Assembly (NCBI GenBank): GCA_017448345.1
Contig: JAFSLP010000031.1
Span: 1 to 33,799 of the forward strand
Length of the DNA: 33,799 bases
DNA from: Paludibacteraceae bacterium
GTDB taxonomy: Bacteria; Bacteroidota; Bacteroidia; Bacteroidales; Paludibacteraceae
Direction: 5' to 3'
A model generated the notes under the pieces. It was not told where the DNA came from. It made no database searches and saw only the letters and a list, made by a program, of their open reading frames with translations. Positions within the stretch are counted from its first letter, which is position 1. Each line of letters starts with the position of its first letter. The position numbers were made by a program, and so were the translations under genes. Shown here in pieces: positions 5,953-32,622 of the stretch.

Positions 5953-5976
5953 CTATCAACTTTCAACTATCAACTA
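5953..5976. repeat. 7-bp repeat array at the asnS stop codon
   Basis: Three full in-register units of CTATCAA/CTTTCAA followed by CTA. The last three bases (5974-5976) are the asnS stop codon TAG read on the minus strand. Same unit as the array at 7391-7425. Confidence 0.85.
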
Positions 5977-7371
5977 AAACTCGGCACTCTTCGGAGTACG
6001 CGGGAAGGGGATTACGTCCCGGATGTTCTGCATACCCGTGACGAACAGCATCAGCCGTTCGAAGCCCAGACCGAAGCCCGCGTGCGGCGCTGCGCCGAAA
6101 CGGCGGGTGTCGAGATACCACCACATATCTTTCATCGGTATATGGCGTCGTTCTATCTCGTCGTTCAGTTTCTCCAGACTCTCCTCACGTACCGATCCGC
6201 CGATGATCTCGCCTATCTGCGGGAATAGCACATCGGTGCCTTGAACGGTCTTTCCATCCTCGTTTATCTTCATATAGAATGCCTTTATCTCCTTCGGATA
6301 GTCTGTCATGATGACCGGTTTGCGGAAATGCTCCTCCACCAGATACCGCTCATGCTCCGAACTCAAATCGTCACCCCAGTTGCACGGGAACTCGAACTTG
6401 CGACCGTTCTTGATGACTTCCTGCAGAATGCGAATGCCCTCGGTATATTCCAGACGAACGAATTCGGTGTTCGCTACGGAACGCAGACGCTCTATCAGAC
6501 CTTTGTCCACAAACTGGTTGAGGAACTCCAAATCGTCCATGCAATGCTCTAATGCCCAGCGTACGCAGTATTTGATGAAGTCTTCCTCAAGGTCCATCAG
6601 TTCCTGTTTCTGGATAAACGCCACTTCCGGCTCAATCATCCAGAACTCTGCCAAGTGCCGCGGTGTGTTGCTGTTCTCGGCGCGGAAGGTGGGACCGAAG
6701 GTGTATATCTTGCCTAAAGCCATGGCTCCTAACTCGCCTTCCAGCTGTCCGCTGACCGTCAGAGCTGCCATCTTGCCGAAGAAATCATCGCTGTAGTCTA
6801 TCTGACCGTCATCGGTTTTCTTGAGGTTGTAGAGGTTCTTGGTTGTCACTTGGAACATCTGACCCGCGCCCTCGCAGTCGCTGGCGGTGATGAGCGGTGT
6901 GTGGAAATAGAAATAGCCGTGCTCGTGGAAATAGGTGTGAATAGCCATCGCCATGTTATGACGGATACGGAAGACGGCGCCGAACGTGTTCGTACGGGGA
7001 CGCAGGTGCGCCACGGTGCGGAGAAACTCCATGCTCAGACCTTTCTTCTGCAGAGGATATTTCTCAGGGTCGGCGGTGCCGTACACCTCCAACTCTGTCA
7101 GTTGGATCTCTACGTTCTGTCCGGCTCCCTGACTCTCCACGAGGATACCTGTCGCCGAGATACATGAGCCGGTGGTGACGGGTTTGAGACGCTCCTCATC
7201 GAACTTGGCAAGGTCAACCACTATCTGGATGTTCTTGATGGTGGAGCCGTCGTTGAGGGCAATGAAAGATACATTCTTGTTACCCCTGCGGCTGCGAACC
7301 CATCCGCGGACATTGATGGTTTGACCGAAATCTGTACGCTTGAGTGCGTCTATGATTACTGTTCTTTGCAT
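5974..7371 (-). CDS. asnS: Asparagine--tRNA ligase
   Basis: Class IIb aminoacyl-tRNA synthetase that charges tRNA-Asn. An N-terminal OB-fold anticodon-binding domain ([23 protein letters not shown]) precedes the catalytic core with motif 2 ([18 protein letters not shown]) and motif 3 ([10 protein letters not shown]). The open frame extends upstream to 7404, but I place the start at 7371 ([10 protein letters not shown]), giving 465 residues, close to the E. coli enzyme (466). The extra 11 codons would be translated from a 7-bp repeat array and an A/T run. The upstream gap to dnaB (50 bp) is filled by that array; no separate promoter is seen. Stop codon is supplied by the next array. Confidence 0.96.
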
Positions 7372-7390
7372 ATTTTTTATATTTTTTTTT

Positions 7391-7425
7391 CTTTCAACTT
7401 TCAACTTTCAACTATCAACTATCAA
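7391..7425. repeat. 7-bp repeat array at the dnaB stop codon
   Basis: Five perfect in-register heptads: three CTTTCAA then two CTATCAA. The dnaB stop codon (TGA, minus strand, 7422-7424) lies in the final unit. In the mRNA sense the units read TTGATAG/TTGAAAG, which carry stop codons that rotate through all three frames. Confidence 0.9.
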
Positions 7426-9005
7426 AAGGGCGGTGCCATGCTTTCGCCTAATCCGTTCATGGCGGCTCCGTCTGGACTCATCTGCTGGCTGAACGAAACT
7501 GCGCCCATCGAGTTGTTCATGCTCGATTGTATCGCCACGCTCTCTGTGCCCGTAGGAGGCATCGGACCGCCCAACTCATCCGGATCCACGGCTTCGTCTT
7601 CGTTCTGGAACTTGGCGTACTTGCCACGGAAACGGAGCCATATACTATCGGTAGCACCATTACGGTGTTTGGCTACGATAATCTGCGCCAAACCGCGCAG
7701 ATCCTTGCCCGTCTTGTCATCGTTGTACAGGTGATAATACTCCGGACGGTGGATGAAACAAACCATATCGGCGTCCTGTTCGATGGCTCCGGACTCACGC
7801 AAATCGCTCAATTGCGGCGTCTTGCCTTCCACGCCCTGACGTGCTTCTACGCCACGGTTCAACTGTGAGAGGGCGATGATAGGTATGTCCAACTCTTTGG
7901 CAAGTGCCTTGAGGTTACGGGAGATGATTGACACCTCCTGCTCGCGGCTGCCGAATGACGAACCCTGCGCATTCATCAGCTGCAGGTAGTCGATGATGAT
8001 GACTTTGATGCCGTATTCGTGCACCAGCTTGCGTGCTTTGGAGCGCAGCTCGAAGATAGACAGAGAAGGGGTGTCATCCATATACAGCGGCTTGCCCTTC
8101 ATGATGTTAATCTTCGTATTCAGCCTGCGGGTCTCTTCTTTGCTCATCTTGCCGGTCTTGATGCGGTCGCCTTCTATCTCGCACACATTCATGATGAGAC
8201 GGTTGACGAGCTGCACGTTCGACATCTCCAGCGAGAACAATGCCACCGGTATCCGGCAATCGACAGCCATATATTTTGCCATCGACAGCACAAAAGCCGT
8301 CTTTCCCATCGCCGGACGGGCGGCAATGATAATCAGGTCAGGAGACTGCCAGCCGGATGTGATTTTGTCCAGCGCATGGAACCCGGACGGGATACCGCTG
8401 ATGTTTCCGGTGTTCTTGGCGGCATTCTCCATACGTTTGAATGCCTCCTCTATCACCGGGTCTATCTGTGTCACGTCGCGTTTCTGGCTGCGCTGGGTTA
8501 TCTCGAAGATACCGGCTTCCGCTTCCTGCATCAGCTCGTCGATATCCTGAGTCTCGTCAAAGGCTTTCTCTTCGATATCCGCCGCCATCGCGATGAGGTC
8601 ACGGGCGGTAGCTTTCTTGGCTATGATTTGCGCATGATAGCGCAGGTGGGCCGTAGAAGCCACACGGCGTGTCAGGTCGGCAAGATAAACGGCTCCGCCG
8701 GCTTTGTCCAGCGTGCCCATCGTGCGTAATTTCTCACCCACAGAGAGGATGTCTATCGGCTCGTCTTTGCTTGCCAACGCACGGATTGCCTCATAGACCA
8801 TCCGGTTCTGGTCTTTATAGAACACCTCAGGACGCAGCAAATCCGCCACACTTCCGTAGGCGTCTTTCTCTATCATCAGTGCGCCGAGAACCGAGTCCTC
8901 CAGCTCTTGCGCCTGCGGAGGAAGCTTGCCTGTCTCGTTGGCGCCTACCTTGATGATGGTGGTCTGAGGGGTGCGTTTGCGGTTATTCCTGCTTGAGTCT
9001 GCCAT
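7422..9005 (-). CDS. dnaB: Replicative DNA helicase DnaB
   Basis: 527 residues, a little longer than E. coli DnaB (471). N-terminal DnaB domain at about 30-130 (LPPQAQELEDSVLGALMIEK), linker, then the RecA-type motor with Walker A ARPAMGKTAF near residue 231, Walker B-like VIIIDYLQLM, and the later SREQEVSIISRNLKALAKEL block with arginine-finger region. It unwinds DNA at the fork as a hexamer. The C-terminal ~45 residues after the core are a low-complexity tail rich in S, M, N, P. Its first 23 bp overlap the end of meaB, suggesting translational coupling. Confidence 0.97.
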   Translation of the reverse strand: MADSSRNNRKRTPQTTIIKVGANETGKLPPQAQELEDSVLGALMIEKDAYGSVADLLRPEVFYKDQNRMVYEAIRALASKDEPIDILSVGEKLRTMGTLDKAGGAVYLADLTRRVASTAHLRYHAQIIAKKATARDLIAMAADIEEKAFDETQDIDELMQEAEAGIFEITQRSQKRDVTQIDPVIEEAFKRMENAAKNTGNISGIPSGFHALDKITSGWQSPDLIIIAARPAMGKTAFVLSMAKYMAVDCRIPVALFSLEMSNVQLVNRLIMNVCEIEGDRIKTGKMSKEETRRLNTKINIMKGKPLYMDDTPSLSIFELRSKARKLVHEYGIKVIIIDYLQLMNAQGSSFGSREQEVSIISRNLKALAKELDIPIIALSQLNRGVEARQGVEGKTPQLSDLRESGAIEQDADMVCFIHRPEYYHLYNDDKTGKDLRGLAQIIVAKHRNGATDSIWLRFRGKYAKFQNEDEAVDPDELGGPMPPTGTESVAIQSSMNNSMGAVSFSQQMSPDGAAMNGLGESMAPPF

Positions 9006-10080
9006 ATGCGGTGATTAAGTTGTGTGCAGCGATGAAACTGCTTATTTCGTTATTGAGCACTTGTCGTTCTGCTACTTCGATGCGGTGCTCCATCTGTTCG
9101 TTTTTGTAGAATCCGTCCAGCAGCGCTTGGTTGATGGTCTCGTACATCCAATATTTGGCTTGTTCGGTCCGGTGGGCGTCGAAATAGCCGTTCTTTTTCG
9201 TGAAGGCGATGTATTCTTCTATGTTTTTCCAGACATCCATCACGCCTGTGTGGTCTATCGAGGAGCAGCAGATGGTATCGGGTTTCCATCCGGACTCGGA
9301 AGGAGGAAAGAGCATCAGTGCGTTCTTGAAACTCACTCGCGCTGCGCGCGCACGGTCAATATTATTACCGTCGCATTTGTTGATGGCGATACCGTCAGCC
9401 ATCTCCATGATTCCGCGTTTGATGCCTTGCAGCTCATCGCCGGTGCCGGTCACCTGTAGCAGCAGAAAATAGTCCACCATCGAGTGCGCTGCCGTCTCTG
9501 ACTGACCCACACCCACGGTCTCCAACAGGATGGTGTCAAACCCTGCCGCCTCGCATAACACGATGGTCTCACGGGTCTTGCGAGCCACACCGCCAAGCGA
9601 ACCGGCTGACGGGCTGGGACGGATGAACGCATTCGATTTGACGGACAGCTCGTTCATACGCGTCTTGTCGCCGAGGATGGAACCTTTGCTCCGTTCGCTG
9701 GAGGGGTCGATGGCGAGGACTGCCAGTTTTTTGCCGTGCTCGCATAACTCGCTGCCTAACGCCTCGATGAAGGTTGACTTGCCTGCGCCCGGCACACCGG
9801 TAATACCTACGCGTATGGAGTTGCCAGCGTACGGAAGGCACAGCTCAATCACTTTCTGGGCGATGGCTTGGTCCGCGAGCAGGTTGCTCTCCACTAATGT
9901 CACCGCCTGACTCAGTATAGTCATGTCGCCGCGGCGGATACCCTCGAAATATTCTTCGGGGCTCAATACCGTCTTCTTCCGGCGGAAAGTGGAGTAGGGG
10001 TTGACGGACGGCAGGTTTTGTACGCCCGCGTTGACCGTCAATCCCTTGTATTCTGCGCTATTTTCCGGATGTTCTATCAT
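8983..10080 (-). CDS. meaB: MeaB/ArgK family G3E P-loop GTPase (methylmalonyl-CoA mutase chaperone)
   Basis: 365 residues, slightly over the usual ~330. Walker A GVPGAGKSTF at about residue 97, an ETVGVGQSE switch/Walker B region, and NKCD (G4 base specificity) near residue 236 identify the MeaB group, which guards adenosylcobalamin loading and inactivation of methylmalonyl-CoA mutase. The mutase genes (mutA/mutB) are not in this window, so the partner is inferred from the family and from the propionate pathway common in Bacteroidales. The start overlaps the end of the DUF1573 gene by 4 bp (ATGA-type), and the end overlaps dnaB by 23 bp. Confidence 0.93.
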   Translation of the reverse strand: MIEHPENSAEYKGLTVNAGVQNLPSVNPYSTFRRKKTVLSPEEYFEGIRRGDMTILSQAVTLVESNLLADQAIAQKVIELCLPYAGNSIRVGITGVPGAGKSTFIEALGSELCEHGKKLAVLAIDPSSERSKGSILGDKTRMNELSVKSNAFIRPSPSAGSLGGVARKTRETIVLCEAAGFDTILLETVGVGQSETAAHSMVDYFLLLQVTGTGDELQGIKRGIMEMADGIAINKCDGNNIDRARAARVSFKNALMLFPPSESGWKPDTICCSSIDHTGVMDVWKNIEEYIAFTKKNGYFDAHRTEQAKYWMYETINQALLDGFYKNEQMEHRIEVAERQVLNNEISSFIAAHNLITAYGRLKQE

Positions 10081-11156
10081 TCAACGGTGAAATTGACCTT
10101 TATTTTCTTGATAGAGTTGGCGTAGTCATTGCTGATTACCACTACCTCACGGCTGTAAGTGCCGGGTTTCATGCCCTTGGTGTTCACCTCTACGGCCAGC
10201 ATGCCTTTCTTACCGGACTTGACGGGTTTGAGGGCTTTGAAACTCAGGTTCTCCTCTGTGCTATAGACGCGGCGGATCTCCAACGGGTTGACGCCGATGT
10301 TCTTCACCTCAATCTTGCCTTTCAGCGTTTTGCCTGCGGCTGCTTTGCCCAACTCTGCACTTGCCGGAACCTCGATGATAGGAGCTTGTTGCTTGTCCTC
10401 AACGCTCAGAGCCGAGAAATCTTCGACGATATTGGCTTTGATGGTCAGCTTGTGTGCCTCGTCCTGCACATTCTTGCCGTCCACTACTACGTATGCGGCT
10501 GCCTCTACCGGACCATACACGTTGCTTTCCTTTGTGTCTACTACGAACACGAACTTGCCGGTCTCATTCGGCTTGAGTTCGGCGAGGGTCACTTGGCTGA
10601 ACAGATAGCAGTCGGCGGTACTGGTGGCGAGTTCCACTTTGTGGTTCTCCTGTTTGAGGTTGGCGTATTCCAGTTCGCCGGTCTTGCTCTCGCCTTTCTT
10701 GATGGTACCGAGGTCGATGGCTTTGCTCTTCATGTTCAGCTCCCCTACCGCTACGGTGTATTTGTTGGCAGGCTTGGCTTGCTTGGGAATAACCTCGCCC
10801 TTGATATACACTTTCTTGGTCGGCTCGGTGGCGTTGGAGGTGATGGTCACAGTCTTTTGGAAACGACCCGGACGGCCGTTGGGGTTGTATGTCACGGTGA
10901 TACTTCCGGTCTTGCCCGGTTCTACCGGTTCTTTGGTCCATGTAGGGGTGGTGCAACCGCAACTCGCGCGTACGTTGCTCAGGACAAGTGGAGACATTCC
11001 TTCGTTTTTGAATTCAAATACTACGGACACACGGCCGTCGGCTTCGTTGATTTTGCCGAAATCATGCTCGGTCTTCTCGAATGTGATAACCGGTTGTTGA
11101 CCCATCATGGCTACTGCTACAAGAGCCATGCAGAGAGTGCTGAAAATCTTTTTCAT
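10077..11156 (-). CDS. DUF1573 domain exported protein
   Basis: 359 residues with an N-terminal signal peptide (about 1-19, ending MMGQQ). Residues 22-125 carry the DUF1573 signature: FEKTEHDFGKI, then FKNEGMSPLVLSNVRASCGC and a WTKEPVEPGKTGSITV strand. The CGCT cysteine pair is typical. The rest is made of further Ig-like/ASPM-SPD-2-Hydin-like beta domains (about 140-240 and 265-357, the last with NIGVNPLEIRRV). These proteins are common in Bacteroidetes and their role is unknown; a periplasmic or surface scaffold is a guess. The 72-bp gap from relA contains a 7-bp repeat array (11208-11235). Confidence 0.85.
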   Translation of the reverse strand: MKKIFSTLCMALVAVAMMGQQPVITFEKTEHDFGKINEADGRVSVVFEFKNEGMSPLVLSNVRASCGCTTPTWTKEPVEPGKTGSITVTYNPNGRPGRFQKTVTITSNATEPTKKVYIKGEVIPKQAKPANKYTVAVGELNMKSKAIDLGTIKKGESKTGELEYANLKQENHKVELATSTADCYLFSQVTLAELKPNETGKFVFVVDTKESNVYGPVEAAAYVVVDGKNVQDEAHKLTIKANIVEDFSALSVEDKQQAPIIEVPASAELGKAAAGKTLKGKIEVKNIGVNPLEIRRVYSTEENLSFKALKPVKSGKKGMLAVEVNTKGMKPGTYSREVVVISNDYANSIKKIKVNFTVE

Positions 11157-11207
11157 AATGTTCTTTTATTTGTTTTGATATGATTTTTTGATATGCTTTG
11201 ATAGATA

Positions 11208-11235
11208 TTAATTATTAATTTTTAATTATTAATTA
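11208..11235. repeat. 7-bp repeat array at the relA/spoT stop codon
   Basis: Four in-register units TTAATTA (one TTAATTT). The relA/spoT stop codon TAA (minus strand, 11229-11231) opens the last unit, and every unit supplies TAA-type stops as the frame rotates. Confidence 0.85.
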
Positions 11236-13481
11236 CTGTCCACTCTTCTGACATCTTTGATGTCGTCTATCTTCTTGATGGCTTTGAGCAACTCCTCTAA
11301 TTCGGTGCGGTCATAAACGTAAATTTCCATGGTGCCTTTGAAGATACCGTCTTCGCTGGTCACGTTCACGCTGCGCATGTTGATGTGAAACTCCGTCGTG
11401 ATGGCTTGCAGCACTTGGATGAACACACCGAATTTGTCTATGCCCTTGAACTCGATGGTCTCTACAAAGGACTGCACGCGATGGGTGTTCCATGTTGCGG
11501 AATAGATGCGTTTGCCGTAGCTTGTCTTCAGCAGGTTCGCCTCTGGGCAGTCTATCTTGTGGATGTGCATCTTGCCTTCCTCGTCCAAGTAACCTAACAC
11601 TTCGTCACCCGGTATCGGGTGGCAACATTGGCTCAGCAGGTAGTCTTTTCCGAGATTCTCGTCGGTCAGCACGATGGCGTGAGGACCTTTCTTGGGCTTG
11701 ACAATCTCCTTCTTTTCGGACGGCTGAAGGCTGATTGCGGACGGCTCCTTCTTTCCGATAAACGGTATGTACGACCGCCAGCCGCGTTTCGGCAGCACTA
11801 TCTCGTGCAGGTTGTCCAGTCGCAGAACGCCTTGCCCTATCTGCAAGTACAGCTCGTTGGGCGTGCTCAGCTTGTAATAACTCAATAATCGTGCCAGAAC
11901 CAAGTCACGCTTGCCCGACAAGTCGGAATCCATGTTGATGGCATCGGTCAGCAGTCGCTCGCCGTGTCTGATATACCGTCTCTCCTCGCGCCGGAAATAC
12001 AGGTTCAGACCGTTCTTGGCTTTGGCGGTCGTCACCATCTCCAGCCACTCGCGCTGGGGATGCTGGCTGTTGGATGTCAGCACTTCTATCTGGTCGCCGC
12101 CTTTCAGTTGGTAGGATAGCGGCACAAGCGTATGGTTCACTTTCGCGCCTATGCAGTGTTCGCCGAGCTCCGAGTGGAGCATGAATGCGAAATCGAGGGC
12201 GGTCGAACCTAACGGCATTGTTTTTATCTCGCCTTTCGGAGTGAATACGAACACCTCTTGCGCGAACAGGTTCAGTTTGAATGTACCGAGGAACTCCATC
12301 GCATCTTTCTCCGGATGCGCAAGGATGTCTTTGATCTCGCGGAGCCACTTGTCCAGTTCGCTGTCGTCCGATTCGCCCGTCTTGTATTTCCAGTGAGCCG
12401 CATAACCGCGTTCCGCTATCTCATGCATGCGGTCCGTGCGTATCTGTACCTCCACCCATTGACCGTTGGCGGCCATCACCGTCACATGGAGTGCCTCGTA
12501 GCCGTTGGATTTCGGCGTGGAAATCCAGTCACGGATGCGCTCAGGATGAGGACGGTAAATCTCTGTGATGGCGGAGTAAATCATCCAGCACTGGTCTTTC
12601 TCGCTCATCGACTCGTTCGGCGTGAAGATGATACGCACGGCTAACAGGTCATACACATCCTCGAACGCGCATTGTTGCCGCACCATCTTCTTCCATATCG
12701 AATAGACGGACTTGATGCGTGCTTTGAGTTCGAACTTGTACCCCATGCTTGTCAGCCGCTCGCGGATAGGTTCCGCAAACTGCTCGTAGTTCGCCATCTG
12801 GCTGGTCTTTACCGCCTCTAACTTGTCGTGTATCTCCTGCCACGTGTCGGGGTGTTCGTATTTGAAACTCAGGTCCTCCAACTCCGTCTTGATGGGGAAC
12901 AGACCCAGCCTGTGAGCCAGAGGCGCGTAGATATATTGGGTCTCGCCGGCTATCTTGTATTGCTTGTCTTTGGGCTGGGCGCCTAATGTACGCATGTTAT
13001 GCAGACGGTCCGCTATCTTGATCAGCACCACGCGGATGTCGTCGCTGATGGTCAGCAGCAGCTTGCGGAAGTTCTCTGCCTGCTCCGATGCTTGGTCACC
13101 GAACACGCCGCCGCTAATCTTGGTCAGACCGCCCACTATCTGGGCTATCTTGTCGCCGAACAGACCGGCTATGTCCTCTACTGTGTAATCGGTGTCCTCC
13201 ACCACGTCGTGCAGCAGCGCCGAGCATATGCTTGTGCTGCCCAGACCTATCTCGCGCACACAGATGCGTGCCACGGCTATCGGATGCATGATATACGGTT
13301 CGCCGCTCAGCCTGCGCACGCCGTAATGTGCCTTGTGCGCAAAATTGAACGCATGCGTTATCAGTTCCACTTTCTGACGGTGCGGAGTATGGGCATAATC
13401 ATCCAGCAGAGCTTCAAACTCGCGCTGAATCATTTGCTCTTCTTCCTGTGTAAATTCGCTTTTCTGCATAGACGTACTCAA
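11229..13481 (-). CDS. Bifunctional (p)ppGpp synthetase/hydrolase, RelA/SpoT (Rel) family
   Basis: 750 residues, full-length long RSH protein. Order: HD hydrolase domain (about 40-190, with MHPIAVA and HDVVEDT at 91-97, so the hydrolase looks active), synthetase domain (about 240-370, with RIKSVYSIWKKM and STPKSNGYEALHVTV), TGS domain (about 400-465, VFTPKGEIKTMPLGSTALDFAF), a helical/zinc-finger-like part with the CCHPIPGD motif, and a C-terminal ACT domain (about 670-745). It makes and breaks the alarmone (p)ppGpp in starvation. A clear promoter sits 9 bp upstream of the start codon, giving a nearly leaderless mRNA; translation could instead start at Met5 (13469). Confidence 0.95.
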   Translation of the reverse strand: MSTSMQKSEFTQEEEQMIQREFEALLDDYAHTPHRQKVELITHAFNFAHKAHYGVRRLSGEPYIMHPIAVARICVREIGLGSTSICSALLHDVVEDTDYTVEDIAGLFGDKIAQIVGGLTKISGGVFGDQASEQAENFRKLLLTISDDIRVVLIKIADRLHNMRTLGAQPKDKQYKIAGETQYIYAPLAHRLGLFPIKTELEDLSFKYEHPDTWQEIHDKLEAVKTSQMANYEQFAEPIRERLTSMGYKFELKARIKSVYSIWKKMVRQQCAFEDVYDLLAVRIIFTPNESMSEKDQCWMIYSAITEIYRPHPERIRDWISTPKSNGYEALHVTVMAANGQWVEVQIRTDRMHEIAERGYAAHWKYKTGESDDSELDKWLREIKDILAHPEKDAMEFLGTFKLNLFAQEVFVFTPKGEIKTMPLGSTALDFAFMLHSELGEHCIGAKVNHTLVPLSYQLKGGDQIEVLTSNSQHPQREWLEMVTTAKAKNGLNLYFRREERRYIRHGERLLTDAINMDSDLSGKRDLVLARLLSYYKLSTPNELYLQIGQGVLRLDNLHEIVLPKRGWRSYIPFIGKKEPSAISLQPSEKKEIVKPKKGPHAIVLTDENLGKDYLLSQCCHPIPGDEVLGYLDEEGKMHIHKIDCPEANLLKTSYGKRIYSATWNTHRVQSFVETIEFKGIDKFGVFIQVLQAITTEFHINMRSVNVTSEDGIFKGTMEIYVYDRTELEELLKAIKKIDDIKDVRRVDSN

Positions 13482-13628: not shown

Positions 13629-13785
13629 GGGCACTTCTATAAATTGCTTTGTTTTGATTTAGAGGTTTGTCTTGGGTAGATTGTTGTCTTTCTTGAAGGA
13701 GCGATGCGGGCATCGTGACTGAATGAAAGTCAGCAAGATACCAAGAAAAAGCCTAAAGCGAAATAAAAGTGCCTGATTTATTTAT
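13629..13785 (+). ncRNA. Candidate structured non-coding RNA, 6S-RNA-like fold
   Basis: The region directly downstream of a strong promoter folds into one long irregular hairpin. Closing stem GGCACTT (13630-13636) with AAGTGCC (13767-13773); second stem TTGCTTT (13644-13650) with AAAGCGA (13755-13761, one G-U); third stem AGGTTT (13663-13668) with GCCT-side 13749-13754, continuing as TCTTGG with CCAAGA; then TCTTG (13691-13695) with CAAGA (13734-13738), and two apical hairpins (CGATG/CATCG, TGACT/AGTCA). Length about 145-155 nt, with no ORF. Long bulged rods of this size are typical of 6S RNA, but I cannot confirm homology. A long leader of the amidase gene is the alternative. Confidence 0.5.
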
Positions 13786-13800
13786 TGAATATTAATTTAT

Positions 13801-13834
13801 GGCATACTATAAATGTGGAATTTATAGAAATGCC
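13801..13834 (+). promoter_or_regulatory. Strong hairpin just upstream of the amidase start codon
   Basis: GGCAT (13801-13805) pairs with ATGCC (13830-13834), and CTATAAAT (13807-13814) pairs with ATTTATAG (13820-13827), giving a 13-bp stem with a 1x2 internal loop and a 5-nt loop. It ends 16 nt before the chosen start codon. There is no following T run, so it is not a standard terminator. It may mark the RNA's 3' boundary, protect a processed end, or control amidase translation. Confidence 0.5.
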
Positions 13835-13850
13835 CTGTATTTGCCTTATT

Positions 13851-15023
13851 ATGCGAAAATCTCTGTTTCTTATACTCGCGGTGTGTCTCTCTATGAATGT
13901 CATGGCAGAGAACGCTTATACCCTTGTCCTCGACCCCGGACACGGCGGAAAAGATGCAGGAGCCGTAGGGCGGTTCTCTAAAGAGAAAGACCTCAACCTC
14001 AAGCTCGCCCTCAAGGTCGGCAAACTCATCAACGAGCAATACCCCGATGTCAAGGTGGTCTATACGCGTTCCACCGATGTCTTCATTCCCTTGCAGCAGC
14101 GGGCGGACATAGCCAATAAGAGCAATGCCGACCTCTTCATGTCCATCCATGCCAACTCGGCGGAGTCCAGAGCGGCGAAGGGGGTAGAGACCTTCATCCT
14201 CGGTACCGAGAAGATGGAGCAGAACCTTGATGTCGCCATGCGGGAGAACGCCGTGATGAAACTCGAGGCGGACTATAAGACTACCTATCAGGGTTTTGAC
14301 CCCAACTCCATCGACTCGTATATCATGTTCGAACTGATGCAGAACAGCCATATGGACCAGTCCCTCCAGTTCGCTACACAGGTGCAGGACCGTTTCGTCG
14401 GGCAGCTCAACCGCTCTGACAGGGGAGTGCGGCAAGCCGCCTTCTGGGTGCTGCTTAAAACAGCGTGTCCGTCTGTTCTTTTTGAAATGGGATTCATCTC
14501 CAACCCCGATGAAGAGAAATTTCTCAATCAGGATGCCTCGATGAACAAGATGGCACAGACCCTCGTTGATGCCTTCGGGGCTTATACGCACAAGCAGAAA
14601 GCACGCCTTGAAACCACCAAAACAGAGCCTCAAAACAATGATAAGTCAGCGGTAAAAGACGAAAACGAGACGAAAACGAGTCGAAAACGAGACGAAAACG
14701 ACCCGGACATCCAAGCACCCGCAAAAGAGACCAAAGAGCCTGCAAAAGAGACCATTAGCCCGTCGGAAAAGGAAACCAAGGCACCGGTTGAAATGCAGAA
14801 CGCGGAGAAGAAACTCTACTATGCCGTGCAGATCTGTGCCTCAAGAGAACCCCTTGAACCTGATGATCCGCGGCTTCGAGGCATCGAATACGGCTGCATC
14901 AAGGTCGGCGAGTGGTACAAATACTATACCGCTGCACATACCGACAGAGCGCATGTCGCCTCATCACAGCAGCAACTCAAACCCCGCTACCCTGACTGCT
15001 GGATTATCAAGTTTGAGAAATAA
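13851..15023 (+). CDS. N-acetylmuramoyl-L-alanine amidase (Amidase_3) with C-terminal SPOR-like domain
   Basis: Cuts the amide bond between MurNAc and the peptide stem during daughter-cell separation. I choose the ATG at 13851 (390 residues) because it gives a clean signal peptide (1-19, MRKSLFLILAV...MA); the frame is open to 13785 but those codons cross a strong hairpin. Zinc ligands of Amidase_3 are visible: H31 (DPGHGG), E45, H100 (SIHANS), with the catalytic Glu near 212 (LFEMGFISN). A charged linker (about 245-320) contains an 11-bp DNA repeat, and the last ~70 residues (YYAVQICAS...WIIKFEK) resemble a peptidoglycan-binding SPOR domain. Followed by an MCE gene, a pairing common in Bacteroidetes. 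Confidence 0.93.
   Translation: MRKSLFLILAVCLSMNVMAENAYTLVLDPGHGGKDAGAVGRFSKEKDLNLKLALKVGKLINEQYPDVKVVYTRSTDVFIPLQQRADIANKSNADLFMSIHANSAESRAAKGVETFILGTEKMEQNLDVAMRENAVMKLEADYKTTYQGFDPNSIDSYIMFELMQNSHMDQSLQFATQVQDRFVGQLNRSDRGVRQAAFWVLLKTACPSVLFEMGFISNPDEEKFLNQDASMNKMAQTLVDAFGAYTHKQKARLETTKTEPQNNDKSAVKDENETKTSRKRDENDPDIQAPAKETKEPAKETISPSEKETKAPVEMQNAEKKLYYAVQICASREPLEPDDPRLRGIEYGCIKVGEWYKYYTAAHTDRAHVASSQQQLKPRYPDCWIIKFEK
14658..14701. repeat. 11-bp tandem repeat in the amidase linker
   Basis: Four in-register units of GACGAAAACGA (third unit GTCGAAAACGA). As 11 is not a multiple of three, each unit is read in a different frame, giving a mixed D/E/K/T/R linker. Placed between the catalytic and SPOR-like domains, where length change should be tolerated. 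Confidence 0.9.
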
Positions 15024-15085
15024 TGTATAATTCGTAATATTAATCTGTAATTCGTAATTTATAATTCGTAATTCGTAATTTTTAA
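15024..15085. repeat. 7-bp repeat array between the amidase stop and the MCE gene
   Basis: Begins at the base after the amidase stop codon. Five in-register heptads at 15051-15085, mainly TTCGTAA (also TTTATAA, TTTTTAA), with looser copies at 15024-15050. It fills nearly the whole gap to the MCE start codon at 15092. Confidence 0.88.
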
Positions 15086-15091: not shown

Positions 15092-16042
15092 ATGAACTAT
15101 TCCCGCGAAATAAAAGTTGGTGTACTGGCAGCCGTCTGCCTGTTCCTTCTCTTCTTCGGTTTTAATTTTCTGAAAGGGGTGAACATCTTCTCGCCCACCA
15201 ATTCCTTTCATGGCACGTTTACGGACCTGCACGGACTGGAAGAGCAGGCGCAGGTCATCATCCGGGGGCACAAAGTCGGACAAGTGGACCGTATATCGTA
15301 TGACTTCACGCGTGACAGCGCCTTCACGGTAGATATCTCCATCAAGAGAGACATCGTCCTTCCGCAAGGCACACAGATGGCGCTCATTGCCGACGGGCTC
15401 CTCGGTGGTATGGCTATCGAGCTTCAACTGCCCTCTAACAGCGGAAACGGTCTAACAGCGGAGCGGTCTAACAGTGAAAACGGTCTTTTTGGCGAAGCCG
15501 GTCTCATAGCCAAAGGCTCTTTCCTGCCTACCACCTACGTGCCGGGACTGATGGAATCCGTGCAGGGCGAACTCCTTGCCAAGATAGGCGCCGCCGTTGA
15601 GGATGTGGACTCGCTCGTCGCGGAGCTGCACGGTCAGTTGGAGGGTGACCACCTGCAATCGGCACTTACCAATGTGGACCGCATCTCCGGCGACCTCACT
15701 ACCGTCTCACACGACCTCAAACGGCTCATGAACAACCAAGTGCCACGCATCGTCAACAATGCCGACACGGCTGTCGCCAACCTCAATACCGTCCTCGCAG
15801 ATATCAAAGAGGCGGACCTCAAATCCACTGTCGCACGGGTGGACAAAGCGGTAGAGAATGTCAACGGACTCGTCTCCGATGTCCGCTCGCCAAACGGCAC
15901 TATCGGGCAGCTCATCTACAGCAAATCGCTCTACGATCATGTGGACGCAACGGTCATCTCCGCCGACTCGCTTCTCGTGGACCTCAAGGCGCACCCGAAG
16001 CGCTACGTACACTTCTCTATCTTCGGGAAGAAAGATAAATAA
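15092..16042 (+). CDS. MCE/MlaD family phospholipid-transport substrate-binding protein
   Basis: 316 residues. N-terminal membrane anchor (about 8-30), then one MCE domain (about 38-115: GLEEQAQVIIRGHKVGQVDRI and a DGLLGGMAIELQL end), then a helical, coiled-coil-like tail (about 150-290). MCE proteins of the Mla type form hexameric rings that move phospholipids between the two membranes. The permease and ATPase (MlaE, MlaF) are not adjacent here. A 16/17-bp repeat (15434-15483) inserts an S/N/G/E-rich loop just after the MCE domain. Probably co-transcribed with the amidase; a terminator follows at 16117. Confidence 0.9.
   Translation: MNYSREIKVGVLAAVCLFLLFFGFNFLKGVNIFSPTNSFHGTFTDLHGLEEQAQVIIRGHKVGQVDRISYDFTRDSAFTVDISIKRDIVLPQGTQMALIADGLLGGMAIELQLPSNSGNGLTAERSNSENGLFGEAGLIAKGSFLPTTYVPGLMESVQGELLAKIGAAVEDVDSLVAELHGQLEGDHLQSALTNVDRISGDLTTVSHDLKRLMNNQVPRIVNNADTAVANLNTVLADIKEADLKSTVARVDKAVENVNGLVSDVRSPNGTIGQLIYSKSLYDHVDATVISADSLLVDLKAHPKRYVHFSIFGKKDK
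15434..15483. repeat. 17-bp tandem repeat inside the MCE gene
   Basis: Three copies of TCTAACAGCGGAAACGG with small differences (17, 16 and 17 bp). It encodes the SNSGNGL...SNSENGL insertion following the MCE domain. Confidence 0.85.
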
Positions 16043-16116
16043 TATTGTTAATATTTCTCAGGAAACATATGTTCCACAATTTGTAGTTTTTCTAAATTGC
16101 AATAATTTTTACCAAA

Positions 16117-16157
16117 GCGTAACGCATTGAAAAAGTCGTGCGTTACGCATTTTTTTT
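16117..16157 (+). terminator. Rho-independent terminator after the amidase-MCE operon
   Basis: Perfect 10-bp stem GCGTAACGCA (16117-16126) with TGCGTTACGC (16139-16148), 12-nt loop, followed by A and eight T residues. It lies 74 bp after the MCE stop codon and isolates dnaA transcription. Confidence 0.85.
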
Positions 16158-16216
16158 GAATAAAATTATCTGCCTTTCTTGCAAATTTAAAAGACCCTAT
16201 AAATCAATAAGTTATG

Positions 16217-16263
16217 TGTTGATAACTTGCCTAAATGGCTGACTTTCAATTGCTTGTGCATAA
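16217..16263 (-). promoter_or_regulatory. Two DnaA-box-like sites upstream of dnaA
   Basis: On the minus strand, TTATGCACA (16255-16263) matches the relaxed DnaA box TTATNCACA, and TTATCAACA (16217-16225) differs by one base. They lie 56-100 bp upstream of the dnaA promoter, consistent with autoregulation. Two sites alone do not prove a replication origin, and no AT-rich 13-mer cluster is obvious beside them. Confidence 0.4.
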
Positions 16264-16318
16264 CAACCTAAAAATGCGTCACTTACATCTATGTGCAAAT
16301 CTTTGCTTGGGACGGATA

Positions 16319-16350
16319 TTTGCCTATTCGAAAAAAAAGCAGTACCTTTG
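16319..16350 (+). promoter_or_regulatory. dnaA promoter
   Basis: TTTG (16319-16322), 20-bp spacer, TACCTTTG (16343-16350): full match to the Bacteroidetes -33/-7 consensus. Predicted start near 16357, leaving a leader of about 45 nt before the dnaA start codon. Confidence 0.85.
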
Positions 16351-16402
16351 CACTCGGTTTCGCTAATAGAAGCGATTCTTTTTTTGACACCTTATATAAT
16401 AT

Positions 16403-22491: not shown

Positions 22492-22535
22492 AGCGCGTTA
22501 TTAGCGCGTTATTAGCGGGTTATTAGCGCGTTATT
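22492..22535. repeat. 11-bp tandem repeat downstream of the 405-residue gene
   Basis: Four in-register units of AGCGCGTTATT (third unit AGCGGGTTATT). Same unit length as the arrays at 237-258 and 14658-14701 but unrelated in sequence. Sits in the gap between two convergent genes. A short TTCCCC/GGGGAA hairpin at 22571-22588 follows. Confidence 0.9.
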
Positions 22536-22630: not shown

Positions 22631-24004
22631 TTAGAACGCTACGCCGATGCCTGCGTCGATGAACTCGGCGCGGACGCCGTGTGTCTTCAGACCCAACTGA
22701 ACAAACAGATGGTCCAGCACATGATACTTGAGCACGAACTGCATGTAGCACCATCCGTCCTGATAATTGCTGGCATCCGCGAAGTCATAGCGATAGAAAA
22801 TACCGCGGTTGAGCGGCGTACCGGCTTCGTCCATCTCTTTCGCGCCTTGACCTGTATCCCATGTTTTTTTGCCGGTAAACGGCTCCAGGTTCTTCACCGG
22901 GTCGAACACATAGAACCCGACATGGATACCGGCGGTCAGATTGCCGATGATGAACTCCGGCTGCACGCTGATACCCACGCGGAAACAGTTCTTCACGTTG
23001 CTCTCCTTCAGATACGTCTTGCCGAAATACGTGACAGGCGCATCCGGGAATGCCGCTTTGGCTTCAGGTATGCTGTTGCTCACGCAGGCATAATAGCCGT
23101 CATAGAAAGCATCCACACCGGCACCCACGCGGAAGATGGATAGCGGTACCCAATATGCGGCGGCTTTCACGGTGGCGATGCCGAAGAACAACTGACCGTT
23201 GCGGTTGTCGGCATAGTAGTTCTGTTTTGCGCCGCCTGTTGCACTAATCTCCACAGCCCATGGTTTGTCCACGCCGTCATACAGCTTTCTCGGCACATCC
23301 GGCTTCGGAGCTTGGTATGTACGCGTCGTATCCGCCAACTCCTTCGTACTTCGTACATCTTTCCTTCGTACATTAGCTTGGTATCTCACCCCTAACTCGC
23401 CGCCGAACATGTTATATCCGGCATTCGGGTGCATGAACGAACCGTTGCTGATATGCCGCCAGCCGCCGTTTAGTGTGATGGTCCAGCCGTTTTTGATAGG
23501 GAAATCCATGTATAACTCTAATGCCAGATACGCATTGAGAATGGAACCGATGGACCAGTTGGCGCCTTCATGGTCATGGTATGGATGAGTGCCTTCGTAG
23601 GTGTTGGAATAGCGTTTGGTCACTGCCGCCAGACCTACCGTCGGACGAAGACCGATGCCGAAATGCTTGCCGTTGTAGAATGGCTGGTTCATGTATCCGA
23701 AAGCCGTGAAGGCGGAACCGAGTTTGCTGTCATTGCCGAGGTTGAGATAGCCGGCGCCCACACCGATGGACGCGTTGTTCCATTGTTGCAGGCAATGCCA
23801 TCTGCCCGTCGGCAGAAACTCTACCGAGAAACTGCCGCCCAAGACAGGTCTGCCGCCTAACCACGGATCCACTTTGCCGTCTTTCATCATCATGGTACTT
23901 GTGCCGCTCAGACGGTAGGCTAACTCGTAATGAGGCATGGCAAACGCCTCCGCTATGCTGAAACAGAGACAAAATAATATTATTTTGTAGCGGTAATTTT
24001 GCAT
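22631..24004 (-). CDS. PagL-like outer-membrane protein (acyloxyacyl hydrolase family)
   Basis: 457 residues, signal peptide about 1-22 (ends AFA). The N-terminal half is a beta-barrel with the RHISNG...PNAG motif (H184, S186, N187), the His-Ser arrangement used by lipid A 3-O-deacylase PagL, so it may remove an acyl chain from lipid A. The protein is far longer than PagL (150-190 residues): residues about 230-457 form another barrel-like part ending in AGIGVAF. A 7-bp DNA repeat (23342-23370) encodes about residues 212-221, between the two halves. Divergent from murC with overlapping promoters. The hydrolase activity is inferred from family motifs. Confidence 0.72.
   Translation of the reverse strand: MQNYRYKIILFCLCFSIAEAFAMPHYELAYRLSGTSTMMMKDGKVDPWLGGRPVLGGSFSVEFLPTGRWHCLQQWNNASIGVGAGYLNLGNDSKLGSAFTAFGYMNQPFYNGKHFGIGLRPTVGLAAVTKRYSNTYEGTHPYHDHEGANWSIGSILNAYLALELYMDFPIKNGWTITLNGGWRHISNGSFMHPNAGYNMFGGELGVRYQANVRRKDVRSTKELADTTRTYQAPKPDVPRKLYDGVDKPWAVEISATGGAKQNYYADNRNGQLFFGIATVKAAAYWVPLSIFRVGAGVDAFYDGYYACVSNSIPEAKAAFPDAPVTYFGKTYLKESNVKNCFRVGISVQPEFIIGNLTAGIHVGFYVFDPVKNLEPFTGKKTWDTGQGAKEMDEAGTPLNRGIFYRYDFADASNYQDGWCYMQFVLKYHVLDHLFVQLGLKTHGVRAEFIDAGIGVAF
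23342..23370. repeat. 7-bp repeat inside the PagL-like gene
   Basis: Three copies of CTTCGTA: two adjacent (23342-23355) and a third at 23364-23370, separated by CATCTTTC. Located at the joint between the two halves of the protein. Confidence 0.7.
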
Positions 24005-24108: not shown

Positions 24109-25554
24109 ATGATTAAGTCCAGCGATATACAGCATGTTTTTTTTCTCGGTATAGGCGGTATCGGGATGAGTGCCTTGGCGCGTTATTTCAAGCATCAGGG
24201 GTACATTGTTGCGGGCTACGACCGCACACCGTCGCCGCTGACCCGTGAGTTGGAGCAGGAGGGTATCTTTGTCACCTATGACGACGACCCTGCAATTTTC
24301 AATTCTCCATCCTCCATCCTCCATTCTCCATTCTCAATTCTCAATTCTCATCATACCTTGGTGGTGCGCACGCCCGCTGTGCCGGAGGATAATGCGATAT
24401 ACTCTTTCTTGCGCGGAAACGGGTTCGACATCCGCAAACGCGCAGAAGTTCTCGGACTCGTTACAAGGCAGATGAAGGCGCTTTGTGTGGCGGGGACGCA
24501 TGGCAAGACTACTACCAGCACCATGCTTGCACATCTCCTCTATCAGTCGGAGATAGGCACGAATGCCTTCTTGGGAGGTATCAGCATGAATTATGGCACC
24601 AACGTACTGCTCTGCAAGGATAGCGGTTATGTGGTCGTGGAGGCGGATGAGTACGACCGCTCTTTCCATCACCTGAGACCTTATATGTCTGTGGTGACAG
24701 CGGTGGACCCTGACCATTTGGATATCTATGGCACCCCGGAAGCCTATCGGGAAGCTTTCGCTTATTATACCGGGCTTATCACAAATACGCTGGTCATGAA
24801 GCACGGCATAGCCCTGCAGCCACGCCTGCAACCCGGTGTCAAATGCTACACCTATGGTGTAAGAAATGACCAAACGCCCAATGACCAAGCGGTAAATACC
24901 CCTGATTTTTACGCTGATGCTATCCGTGTGAAGAATGGTCAGATATATTTCGATTTCCATACGCCTGTCACCACGTTGCAGGACTTGCGTCTGGGTGTGC
25001 CCGTGTGGGTGAATATAGAGAATGCTGTGGCAGCGATGGCTGTGGCGTGGCTCAACGGAGTTACGGAGGAAGAACTGAGAAACGGTATAGCCTCTTTCAA
25101 GGGCGTGCAGCGCCGTTTTAACATCCATGTCAACACACCCCGTCTGGCGTATGTCGATGACTATGCGCATCATCCGGAAGAGATTGCTACATCCATTGAT
25201 TCCATCCGCCGTCTGTTCCCAAACCGGCATTTCATCGGCGTCTTCCAGCCGCACCTCTATACGCGGACACGCGATTTTGCCGATGAGTTCGCACGCGTGC
25301 TCGGAACAATGGACGAAGTGGTTCTGCTGCCGATCTATCCGGCACGCGAGGAACCGATAGAAGGAGTAAGTAGCGGGATGCTGCTGCAGAAAATCACCAA
25401 CCCGGACAAGAGTATCGTGCAGAAAACGGAACTGACGGACTTCTTGAAAAAGCGCTTGGCGGAACACCCGGAACCGGTGGTTATACTTACTGTGGGAGCC
25501 GGAGACATTGACCGTCTGGTGCCGCAATTGGAGAAAGAACTGGGTAATGAGTAG
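24109..25554 (+). CDS. murC: UDP-N-acetylmuramate--L-alanine ligase MurC
   Basis: 481 residues. Adds L-Ala to UDP-MurNAc, the first peptide step of peptidoglycan synthesis. N-terminal Rossmann domain (FFLGIGGIGMSALARYF), ATP-binding P-loop AGTHGKTTT near residue 130, central VEADEYDRSF, and the C-terminal HHPEEI and QPHLYTR blocks are intact. Two repeat-encoded insertions: residues about 63-81 (7-bp array, 24296-24351) and about 253-263 (15-bp repeat, 24865-24893). Both are in loops and leave the catalytic motifs untouched. Overlaps the ftsQ start by 8 bp. Confidence 0.97.
   Translation: MIKSSDIQHVFFLGIGGIGMSALARYFKHQGYIVAGYDRTPSPLTRELEQEGIFVTYDDDPAIFNSPSSILHSPFSILNSHHTLVVRTPAVPEDNAIYSFLRGNGFDIRKRAEVLGLVTRQMKALCVAGTHGKTTTSTMLAHLLYQSEIGTNAFLGGISMNYGTNVLLCKDSGYVVVEADEYDRSFHHLRPYMSVVTAVDPDHLDIYGTPEAYREAFAYYTGLITNTLVMKHGIALQPRLQPGVKCYTYGVRNDQTPNDQAVNTPDFYADAIRVKNGQIYFDFHTPVTTLQDLRLGVPVWVNIENAVAAMAVAWLNGVTEEELRNGIASFKGVQRRFNIHVNTPRLAYVDDYAHHPEEIATSIDSIRRLFPNRHFIGVFQPHLYTRTRDFADEFARVLGTMDEVVLLPIYPAREEPIEGVSSGMLLQKITNPDKSIVQKTELTDFLKKRLAEHPEPVVILTVGAGDIDRLVPQLEKELGNE
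24296..24351. repeat. In-frame 7-bp repeat array inside murC
   Basis: Eight in-register heptads of the form TTCTCMA/TCCTCCA, starting TTTTCAA and ending TTCTCAT. It encodes the FNSPSSILHSPFSILNSH loop. In the coding direction the units contain no stop codons in any frame, while the opposite strand would give TGA. Confidence 0.93.
24865..24893. repeat. 15-bp repeat inside murC
   Basis: Nearly two copies of AATGACCAAACGCCC, encoding NDQTP/NDQAV. The core AATGACCA also appears on the coding strand of the folK/cvpA arrays (458-487, 818-859). Confidence 0.75.
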
Positions 25555-27595: not shown

Positions 27596-27622
27596 AAATC
27601 GTAAATTTGTAAACCGTAAATA
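27596..27622. repeat. 7/8-bp repeat between ftsA and ftsZ
   Basis: Three imperfect units (TCGTAAA, TTTGTAAA, CCGTAAA) directly after the ftsA stop codon and running to just before the ftsZ start. Same style as the TTCGTAA array at 15024-15085. Confidence 0.65.
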
Positions 27623-29881: not shown

Positions 29882-29900
29882 CAGGGTAGAATAAAATAAG

Positions 29901-30677: not shown

Positions 30678-31126
30678 TGGGCTAATAGCTCACGTACTTT
30701 GAGGTTAATAGCCTTGCCCTCCGCCTTGCCGGCGAGTTGCTTGGTAGCCACGCCCATGACTTTGCCCATGTCCTGCGGAGAGGTGGCACCCAATTGGGCG
30801 ATGATCTCTTTGAGTGCAGCGGTCAGCTCTTCCTCGCTCAGCATAGCCGGCAGGTAGCGCTCGATAATCTTGCATTGTGCCAACTCGTCTTCCGCCAGTT
30901 CGGGACGGTTTGCGTCAATATACATCTGCGCTGATTCCTTGCGTTGCTTCACCATCTTCTGAAGGATCTGCAGTGCTTTGTCGTCATGCAGTTCGCCGTC
31001 TCCGCCTTTAGCGGTCTTGGCTTCCAGAAACTCTTTCTTGATTCCGCGCAGCGCGTCCAGCGCCACTTTATCTTTCGCGAGCATCGCTTTCTTGATGTCC
31101 TCGCTTACTTGGTCAAATAAACTCAT
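30674..31126 (-). CDS. GatB/YqeY domain protein
   Basis: 150 residues, standard length. The KKAMLAKDKVALDALRGIKKE opening, central QILQKMVKQRKESAQMY, and the C-terminal MGKVMGVATKQLAGKAEGK segment match the YqeY family, related to the tail of GatB; it probably binds tRNA, but the role is not settled. Coupled to dedA by a 4-bp overlap. Leader holds a repeat array shared with nhaD (31141-31168). Confidence 0.92.
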   Translation of the reverse strand: MSLFDQVSEDIKKAMLAKDKVALDALRGIKKEFLEAKTAKGGDGELHDDKALQILQKMVKQRKESAQMYIDANRPELAEDELAQCKIIERYLPAMLSEEELTAALKEIIAQLGATSPQDMGKVMGVATKQLAGKAEGKAINLKVRELLAQ

Positions 31127-31140
31127 ATGATTTTATTTTT

Positions 31141-31168
31141 AGTCAAAAGTTAAAAGTCGAAAGCATAG
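31141..31168. repeat. 7-bp repeat array in the yqeY leader
   Basis: Four in-register heptads of AGTCNAA type (e.g. AGTCAAA, AGTCGAA). About 24 bp are near-identical to 32580-32604 in the nhaD leader, so both start codons are preceded by the same sequence. Confidence 0.85.
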
Positions 31169-31183
31169 TTTTAACTAATCGGG

Positions 31184-31218
31184 CTTTTGACTTTTTGCTT
31201 TCGACTTTCGACTATTTA
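31184..31218. repeat. 7-bp repeat array at the nhaD stop codon
   Basis: Five in-register heptads (CTTTTGA, CTTTCGA type) ending exactly before the nhaD stop triplet at 31219-31221. They are the inverted complement of the units at 31141-31168, so the two arrays can fold into a hairpin that may end nhaD transcription. Confidence 0.88.
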
Positions 31219-32565
31219 TTAAATAAACAGTAATTGTACAATTATATATACCGGTAACAAGATTATCAAACTGAACTTGATCATGTAGCCGAAGAAGGAC
31301 GGCATCTTGATTCCGCTTTCCTCTGCGATGGCTTTTACCATGAAGTTAGGTCCGTTGCCGATATAGGTCAGTGAGCCGAACATCACAGCCGCGATGGAGA
31401 TGGCTTTGAGCAGTATCTCCGGAATACCGGCTACGAAAGGCGTACCTTCGAATATGCCTGTTACGACACCGGCTTCAGCGGCAGCAAGCGACTCCGGCAG
31501 ACCGGAAGCTACGCCGTGGAAGGCAACCGCAGTAGGTGTGTTATCGAGGAACGCGGAGAGCGCACCGGTCGAGTAATAGAACTGCCATGCGTGGGTGAAA
31601 CCAAGGTCGGCTGCGTGTGCCTTCAGATAGGCGAGGGCAGGGGTCATCGTCGTGAAGATACCGAGGAACAGAACCGCTACCTCTACTATCGGCGTCCAGC
31701 TGAACTTGTTGTCGTCATAACGCACCTCTTTCTTGGTGGTGTAGAGCGAGAGACCTGTGAGCGACAGCAGCACTATCTCACGCAGGTATTTGAGCCACAG
31801 CGGAGCGTCCGCTTCACCCATCTGCTTGATGGTTCCTTCGTTCACAAAAGCCACTGCCAGCACTACGCCCAACAGATAAACGAAATTGATAGTTCCTTTC
31901 ATCACCAACGGCGTAGCTTCACGCGAGTCAGCGGAGAGAGAGGTCCAGTGCTCTTTTTTGTAATAATAGGTGTCCATCGCGAAATAGATGCCGAGCAGCA
32001 GAATTCCCGTTACTGCCCATTCGGGCGCAAGGTGCATGAACCATGAGAAATGTGCGCCGCGAAGGAAGAGCATGAACAAGGGTGGGTCTCCCAGCGGAGT
32101 CAGCAGACCGCCGCAGTTGGCTACCAGCGCGATGAAGAAAAGAATCGTGTGAACCTTGTAGTCACGCTGTTTGTTGGTCTCAATCAGCGGACGGATAAGC
32201 AGCATAGCAGCGCCCGTCGTTCCCATGATAGAGGCTAAGATCCAGCCCAAACCCAAGAAACCGGTGTTGACCCAAGGCTTGGCTTTCAGGTCACCCGAGA
32301 AATGAATACCGCCGGTGATGACAAACAGCGCCAGCAGAAGGATGATGAACGGCACGTAGTCGAAAAAGAGCTGGTGCTCTAACTCGTGCATCATTCCGCC
32401 CATAATCAGGCATACCGCAACGGGCACACCCAGAAAAAGCGAAACAATCAGTTTGTTGGTGTTCTTCTCCCACCAGTGTTCTGCTACCAGCGGACCGATA
32501 GCAATCATCAGAAGCATGAGCCCGAACGGAATCAGCGACCATGCCGAATGTACGAATTGTTCCAT
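31219..32565 (-). CDS. nhaD: NhaD-type sodium:proton antiporter
   Basis: 448 residues, about 11-12 transmembrane helices. Belongs to the ArsB/NhaD (IT) superfamily. The GGLLTPLGDPPLFM motif (about 154-167), AFLDNTPTAVAFHGVA (about 336-351) and GNGPNFMVKAIAEESG (about 402-417) are the substrate-path segments of NhaD. It expels Na+ in exchange for H+. Own promoter at 32653-32684; flanked on both sides by related repeat arrays. Confidence 0.93.
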   Translation of the reverse strand: MEQFVHSAWSLIPFGLMLLMIAIGPLVAEHWWEKNTNKLIVSLFLGVPVAVCLIMGGMMHELEHQLFFDYVPFIILLLALFVITGGIHFSGDLKAKPWVNTGFLGLGWILASIMGTTGAAMLLIRPLIETNKQRDYKVHTILFFIALVANCGGLLTPLGDPPLFMLFLRGAHFSWFMHLAPEWAVTGILLLGIYFAMDTYYYKKEHWTSLSADSREATPLVMKGTINFVYLLGVVLAVAFVNEGTIKQMGEADAPLWLKYLREIVLLSLTGLSLYTTKKEVRYDDNKFSWTPIVEVAVLFLGIFTTMTPALAYLKAHAADLGFTHAWQFYYSTGALSAFLDNTPTAVAFHGVASGLPESLAAAEAGVVTGIFEGTPFVAGIPEILLKAISIAAVMFGSLTYIGNGPNFMVKAIAEESGIKMPSFFGYMIKFSLIILLPVYIIVQLLFI

Positions 32566-32580
32566 AGTATATTATTTTTT

Positions 32581-32622
32581 AGTCAAAAGTCATAAGTCGA
32601 AAGTCGAAAGCCCAAAGTCACT
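32581..32622. repeat. 7-bp repeat array in the nhaD leader
   Basis: Five in-register heptads of AGTCNAA/AGCCCAA followed by AGTCACT. Lies between the nhaD promoter and start codon, so it is part of the 5' leader. Near-identical to 31141-31168. Confidence 0.88.

Follow-up and report, generated by a model that had tools for sequence, protein, structure and literature searches.

The heptanucleotide repeats of Calothrix PCC 7601 are known by the name of STRR. They have been described along with GGGAATC/GGGGAYT repeats in Xanthomonas and Nostoc (Rehm 2015, PMC4692102), and in the parts of that paper which deal with them the repeats are intergenic, with the gene pair kept and the length and sequence varying among related organisms, as is also the case for the arrays of heptads reported here. 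The GGGAATC-type heptads are G-rich and form quadruplexes, whereas the heptad units listed here are A/T-rich and have no G tracts (runs of three or more G). Direct repeats of another heptamer, TAACTGA, are found in marine Beggiatoaceae, cyanobacteria and five Bacteroidetes (MacGregor 2015, PMC4679880). The relevant sections of that paper describe seven-base tandem units that are mostly intergenic, often right upstream of start codons and patchy over phyla, which the arrays here resemble, yet one word dominates there and related heptamers are rarely repeated, whereas here there are 31 distinct consensus units in a single genome, the commonest accounting for 19 of 119 arrays. Unlike the TAACTGA repeats as those sections present them, the arrays here also have word lists that differ between species and occur as in-frame inserts in proteins. 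In locus L144 the units are ACTGATA, a rotation of TAACTGA.

The small dispersed repeats of Nostoc punctiforme are alike in being very small, dispersed and associated with heptad arrays. They are said to have been described by Elhai in 2008 and reportedly are 21-27 nt long, often lie within heptameric repeats and share a hairpin, whereas no hairpin was seen by eye in a single AGTCRAA cassette. Rickettsia palindromic elements are, in the account given in PMC10969869, repeated DNA lying in-frame in unrelated protein genes so that a recurrent peptide results, and this is also seen here, but those elements are about 150 bp and palindromic whereas the arrays here are direct strings of heptads of about 30 nt. 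As regards the terminal inverted repeats or hairpin of MITEs and REPINs (for REPINs see PMC3116915, the relevant part of which names the small dispersed Nostoc repeats in passing), single cassettes here are direct repeats and one inverted pair in the stretch studied folds.

By their unit length of seven, their excess over chance and their concentration between genes, the arrays are intergenic heptanucleotide tandem repeats. The first-pass annotation knew of no named family for them, but bacterial heptanucleotide repeats are already in print; the Bacteroidales word lists differ from the published kinds, and no paper on these lists was found in the open-licence PMC literature.

Arrays in the window and across the genome

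The window, 33,799 nt from a Paludibacteraceae bacterium (JAFSLP010000031.1), is contig C19 of a 120-contig genome bin of 2.5 Mb that is 81% complete with 1.65% contamination. Its Pfam matches are to AsnRS-like, DnaB, MeaB, RelA/SpoT, amidase, MlaD, DnaA, Mur-ligase, FtsA and FtsZ proteins. The relatives whose RelA is 82-88% identical were submitted as MAGs of Paludibacteraceae or uncultured Bacteroidales and come mostly from ruminant guts, and every genome compared is a MAG. Across 75 related loci the best matches to the window AsnRS (5974-7372) have a median identity of 56%, compared with 82% for RelA and 86% for DnaB, and going by these identities AsnRS may be a replacement through horizontal transfer.

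Arrays were scored as segments that match themselves at a lag of seven, with block-Markov shuffles as background. The window has 7 period-7 arrays at score 10, against a mean of 0.05 and a maximum of 1 in 300 shuffles, and TRF recovers most of the listed heptad places (Table 1). Of the ten places in the first-pass annotation, those at 23342 and 27596 are not above chance, nor is 31141-31168 taken alone, because in 50 shuffled windows the best 20-position stretch by lag-7 identity has a mean of 13.6 matches and a maximum of 16. As minus-strand RNA the two inverted AGTCRAA-type arrays at 31141-31168 and 31184-31218 form a hairpin of -22.5 kcal/mol, which sits between gene 31219-32565 and a YqeY-like gene.

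Table 1. Heptad arrays and weaker heptad stretches of the window, with matches at lag 7 and gene context.
Position	Strand	Feature	Lag-7 matches	Context
2554..2570		Array, one of the 7 passing score 10		Absent from the first-pass annotation
5953..5976	-	AGTTGAD-family array (CTATCAA/CTTTCAA on +)	15/17, strong	Overlaps asnS stop codon; 22-38 bp to start of gene 2597-5914
7391..7425	-	AGTTGAD-family array, five units	27/28, strong	Between dnaB (7422-9005 -) and asnS (start ~7371 -), overlapping dnaB stop codon; junction carries other heptads in other species
11206..11235	.	AATTATT-family array (TRF)	19/21 over 11208-11235, strong	Between relA (11229-13481 -) and gene 10077-11156 -, overlapping relA stop codon; similar stretches elsewhere in the genome
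15024..15088	-	AATTACR-family array (TAATTCG on +)	36/55 over 15024-15085, interrupted	Fills gap between amidase gene 13785-15023 + and mlaD gene 15092-16042 +
23342..23356	.	Two CTTCGTA units, weak	14/22 over 23342-23370, not above shuffles	Inside gene 22631-24004 -
24293..24351	.	CAATTCT/CCATCCT/CCATTCT heptads	43/49 over 24296-24351, strong	In-frame inside Mur-ligase gene 24109-25554 +
27596..27622	.	Loose AAATCGT-like heptads, absent from TRF list	11/20, weak, not above chance	Between ftsA and ftsZ
31141..31168	+	AGTCRAA-related heptads	14/21, interrupted, not above chance alone	Inverted partner of 31184..31218
31184..31218	-	AGTCRAA cassette, four units ending AG	20/28, interrupted	Abuts stop of gene 31219-32565 -
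32581..32622	+	AGTCRAA array	26/35, interrupted	Upstream of gene 31219-32565 -

The arrays extend well beyond the window, as had been supposed of them. In a survey of 61 pieces of the genome (863,063 bases, the window counted in) there are 81 period-7 arrays at score 14, compared with 0, 0 and 0 in three shuffles, and at a score of at least 12 there are 119 in 74 clusters. Among other periods at score 14, period 14 gives 33 arrays, which are mostly harmonic, period 15 gives 21, and periods 4-6, 8-10, 12 and 13 give 0 to 12. The consensus YTNNYAA proposed from the window covers the 31 distinct consensus units only loosely.

A second class of tandem array has a period of 11, with 44 in the 863 kb at score 14 and units such as TATACCCTTGC and ATAATCACCCA; these are found in the window at 14657-14701 and 22492-22535 and at many places in L009-L068, mostly intergenic and rarely near stop codons. 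The period-15 arrays consist of alternating 7- and 8-base units (AAATGGT with AAATGACC), as at L042 2880-2947, L061 4571-4660 and others. The commonest unmasked 11-mer, GTACCTTTGCA, occurs in 65 of 480 intergenic stretches in L009-L068 and resembles the Bacteroidota -7 promoter element.

Placement was judged against 565 genes called with a codon model. The 119 arrays fall into 57 in co-directional gaps, 13 in divergent gaps, 2 in convergent gaps, 29 inside genes and 18 beside the end of a piece, which in arrays per kb is 0.043 for coding sequence and 0.67, 0.82 and 0.20 for co-directional, divergent and convergent gaps. In 53 loci around relA from near relatives, one per genome, the respective values are 0.037, 0.98, 0.32 and 1.34. 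That arrays sit at gene junctions is therefore borne out by co-directional gaps being about 16 times denser in them than coding sequence, but not for every place, with 24293-24351 lying in the Mur-ligase gene and 23342-23356 also within a gene; the other strong arrays of the window are between genes.

Many arrays start on a stop codon (81 gene ends listed), and in co-directional gaps of up to 400 bp the numbers at the stop are 16 of 42 where 10.7 are expected (P 0.025) and 32 of 54 where 24.3 are expected (P 0.007). Since arrays placed at random in the gap would be at the stop nearly as often, the excess being modest, stop codons were rejected as specific seeds of arrays. The sense strand is purine-rich in 29 of 42 and 32 of 54 arrays; array-free gaps are purine-rich in 81 of 190, against 29 that are pyrimidine-rich, and in 83 of 192, against 21. 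A strand-specific RNA role was rejected because the orientation of the arrays matches the composition of array-free gaps.

Related junctions and genome-specific words

Eight orthologous junctions were compared in 46-76 genomes each, with five duplicate loci removed by eye, and arrays are present in 9/65, 25/66, 1/70, 5/75, 16/76, 6/46, 12/51 and 2/48 genomes. The 25 arrays at the asnS-dnaB junction use 19 consensus units between them, which supports the observation made on the window that the period stays the same with a different unit, and agrees with its suggestion of a local change in length. The median gap here is 38 bp with an array and 29 bp without, and between the amidase gene and mlaD 53 bp and 24 bp. 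A unit is common to 32 of 548 pairs of genomes when the same junction is compared, and to 35 of 2261 across different junctions. From the counts at the eight junctions the position of an array therefore recurs, with a word that is usually different.

This turnover bears on the proposal that the arrays are sites for a DNA- or RNA-binding regulator of loose specificity, selected upstream of start codons. The arrays do crowd short co-directional gaps, often ending near the next start, and a translational role is proposed for TAACTGA repeats in the part of PMC4679880 concerned with them. However, an array position is gained or lost between species (1-25 genomes per junction have it), the unit differs even between sister species, as in pfp below, 29 of 119 arrays are inside genes, the purine bias is that of array-free gaps and the placement at stops is only modestly above random. 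The binding protein put forward in the first-pass annotation is thus very doubtful.

When clusters at least 1.5 kb apart are paired within this genome, 343 of 2701 pairs have a common unit; pairing its clusters with those of other genomes gives 13 of 1702 for G002, 14 of 740 for G021 and 115 of 6438 for 51 near loci. Sharing within other genomes is 10 of 253 in G002 and 4 of 45 in G021; within the 51 near loci the excess is not significant (5/70 vs 121/3671, with 177 of 2000 permutations). Exact matches to three AGTCRAA units, which overlap and so are not counts of places, number 112 here and 30-69 in nine other genomes; at least one is found in 44 of 81 genomes and none in the remaining 37, with 0-2 in the reversed-pattern control. 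On the pfp tree they are patchy, with 42 in G022 beside 0 in G021 and 48 in G015 beside 6 in G046. Other words have lists of their own: AATTACG three times over gives 99 matches here, 66 in G090 and 33 in G050, and is present in 11 of 81 genomes and absent from 70, and AYTGAAT three times over occurs in 27 of 81 genomes with 0 here. The AGTCRAA word also occurs in a cyanobacterium: on the Anabaena cylindrica plasmid pANACY.02 (L365) AGTCAAA stands five times in tandem, in a gap for which no gene is listed.

Array ends and inserts in proteins

When arrays were extended with tolerance so as to count the phase of their ends, 20 of 27 AGTCRAA arrays begin without a partial unit, 21 end exactly in AG after the last unit and 12 have four units; of 37 AGTTGAD arrays 25 have the AG end and 16 four units. 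On an assumed background of 0.18 the excess of AG ends has a binomial probability of 2e-11 for AGTCRAA and 5e-11 for AGTTGAD, whilst the 27 AATTACR arrays showed no fixed end phase. The commonest cassette length is 30-31 nt, as direct repeats. In L019 and L021 blocks of 17, 24 or 31 nt make up the long AGTTGAD tracts, with 66-nt blocks as well in L019. In G045, sampled through 18 arrays from the 30 of 36 matches retrieved as loci, all 18 are followed by AG and 13 of these then by C, 13 are preceded by T, and the identical unit order GAGG is found in 9, at different places; the sole other array of this composition is GGAG. Among the arrays examined in this genome all four of GAGG composition are GAGG, with the overall order test not significant. 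Unit order within this genome's arrays is not common beyond chance (11 cluster pairs share it, where shuffling gives 9.5 on average and 64 of 200 shuffles are as high), and an argument for copying from identical order here was rejected on this count.

Two kinds of sequence are found next to TTAATTA heptads. CGCCTAACGRGATATTAATT precedes them at 16 places in the genome (for example L266 and L267) with up to two mismatches, the reversed control giving 0. In addition two repeated sequences abut TTAATTA-type stretches at contig ends, one set being L259, L262, L033, L041 and L059 and the other L007, L031 and L060, and these look like the ends of mobile elements.

Fixed ends, a modal four units, sites in both coding and non-coding sequence and the repeated flank just described could all be expected of a dedicated, very small mobile element with a specific enzyme, such as a transposase or reverse transcriptase, comparable to REPINs, Rickettsia palindromic elements or Nostoc repeats. 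This is improbable, as no terminal inverted repeats were seen, nor any target duplication (empty sites being too diverged for comparison), and the enzyme would have to accept many different words. Of 10 AGTCRAA-rich genomes 3 have RVT_1 genes, as do 18 of the 71 others (Fisher P 0.71), so that a reverse transcriptase was rejected as the driver, and phage were rejected as carriers because viral contigs gave 0 exact matches to the canonical 30-mer.

The fixed end phase of the AGTCRAA and AGTTGAD families is the least explained point, and is the basis of a more adventurous reading, that arrays are laid down at breaks or gaps by a template-directed, telomerase-like activity which adds heptads, starting on an AG in the target and stopping at a fixed template boundary. 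This is highly improbable, as are its further parts, that the template word differs by species and that the one variable position per unit is template wobble. If it were true, a swap of template would explain the swapping of units in place.

Since 7 = 1 modulo 3, a heptad array encodes one cyclic heptapeptide whichever of the three frames is read. VESQKSKVES is the exact reading of six of the 29 arrays inside called genes, with several others giving variants of it, and 13 of 14 AGTCRAA arrays within genes are in the sense orientation. Eight of the 29 array-bearing genes had a relative that spans the array, and six were compared by codon. Four of these are longer in this genome by 10, 8, 7-9 and 12 codons, the last in comparison with remote homologues, one is equal in length to its relative (L033) and one has a longer relative (L014). 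The Mur-ligase gene, by inference murC, has a loop at its array that is 7-9 residues longer than in four relatives. The gene at 16045-17664 + of L018, which we take to be pfp, was aligned in 30 of the 58 genomes with a match, and 27 of the 30 species have a short heptad-free loop. The other three have inserts of equal length, 15 nt longer than most, made of AGTCRAA heptads in G000 and G057 and of AAGTACC in G018, and they group as a single clade when a tree is built from the pfp alignment with its insert columns included.

Origin of the arrays

The simplest account is that of replication slippage, in which every array begins as a chance near-duplication and expands where it stands, the 7-nt preference being linked to the polymerase and selection sparing coding sequence, an idea of Mrazek et al. 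2007 in the description that PMC4679880 gives of it. Units change gradually within some arrays (24293-24351), some array-free species have a near-seed, for example L159 at the asnS stop, and the stop codon is itself often part of the array. Local slippage explains growth, shrinkage and drift, but it alone does not suffice for foreign words in genes, genome-specific lists and fixed ends. Nor does it fit the four-unit strings that recur unchanged at separate places of G045, or the in-frame inserts in genes whose relatives are without them, of which pfp points to arrival at a site without a seed. As the whole explanation slippage is therefore unlikely.

It is rather better than an even chance (about 0.55) that heptad insertions of about 30 nt have spread by copying, are tolerated mainly in short gaps and then drift or swap their unit, the arrays being one visible class of short heptad-repeat insertions, mostly of about four heptads, throughout one Bacteroidales genus. 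The first-pass annotation thought copying hard to reconcile with units of the same length and different sequence; the genome-specific words, the four-heptad string in half of the G045 arrays and the in-frame inserts without counterpart in relatives instead favour it. The arrays, far above chance, lie mostly between genes and occasionally in-frame within proteins, and each genome, as is seen for several words, has multiplied a small set of heptads of its own until they match tens or hundreds of times. A new array would then arise when part of an existing one is copied to a gap or to a protein loop that tolerates it; template switching or gene conversion, with two or three shared bases as the primer, are possible routes, and the abundant words would accordingly be the most frequent donors. 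The array could subsequently gain or lose whole heptads, its unit may drift and another word may overwrite it, changes that are seen in part, and with such drift and overwriting position and period would outlast sequence. No function would be needed, with most arrays persisting where a change of 7n bases breaks nothing. Copied array pieces explain the greater part of the observations, although the copying step itself is one that we infer, and no donor-recipient pair, target-site duplication or enzyme was identified for it. Counting against copying are the unit order in this genome, which is no more alike than in shuffles, the non-significant sharing within the near loci, the AATTACR arrays with their variable end phase, and the two genes (L033 and L014) whose relative is equally long or longer.

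Earlier reports of heptanucleotide repeats, from several phyla, came with no mechanism. With its tens of sister species, its orthologous junctions and the inserts read in-frame in proteins, the present material makes a natural experiment in which slippage, copying and regulation are separable by comparison, and the arrays show a source of small in-frame insertions in proteins.
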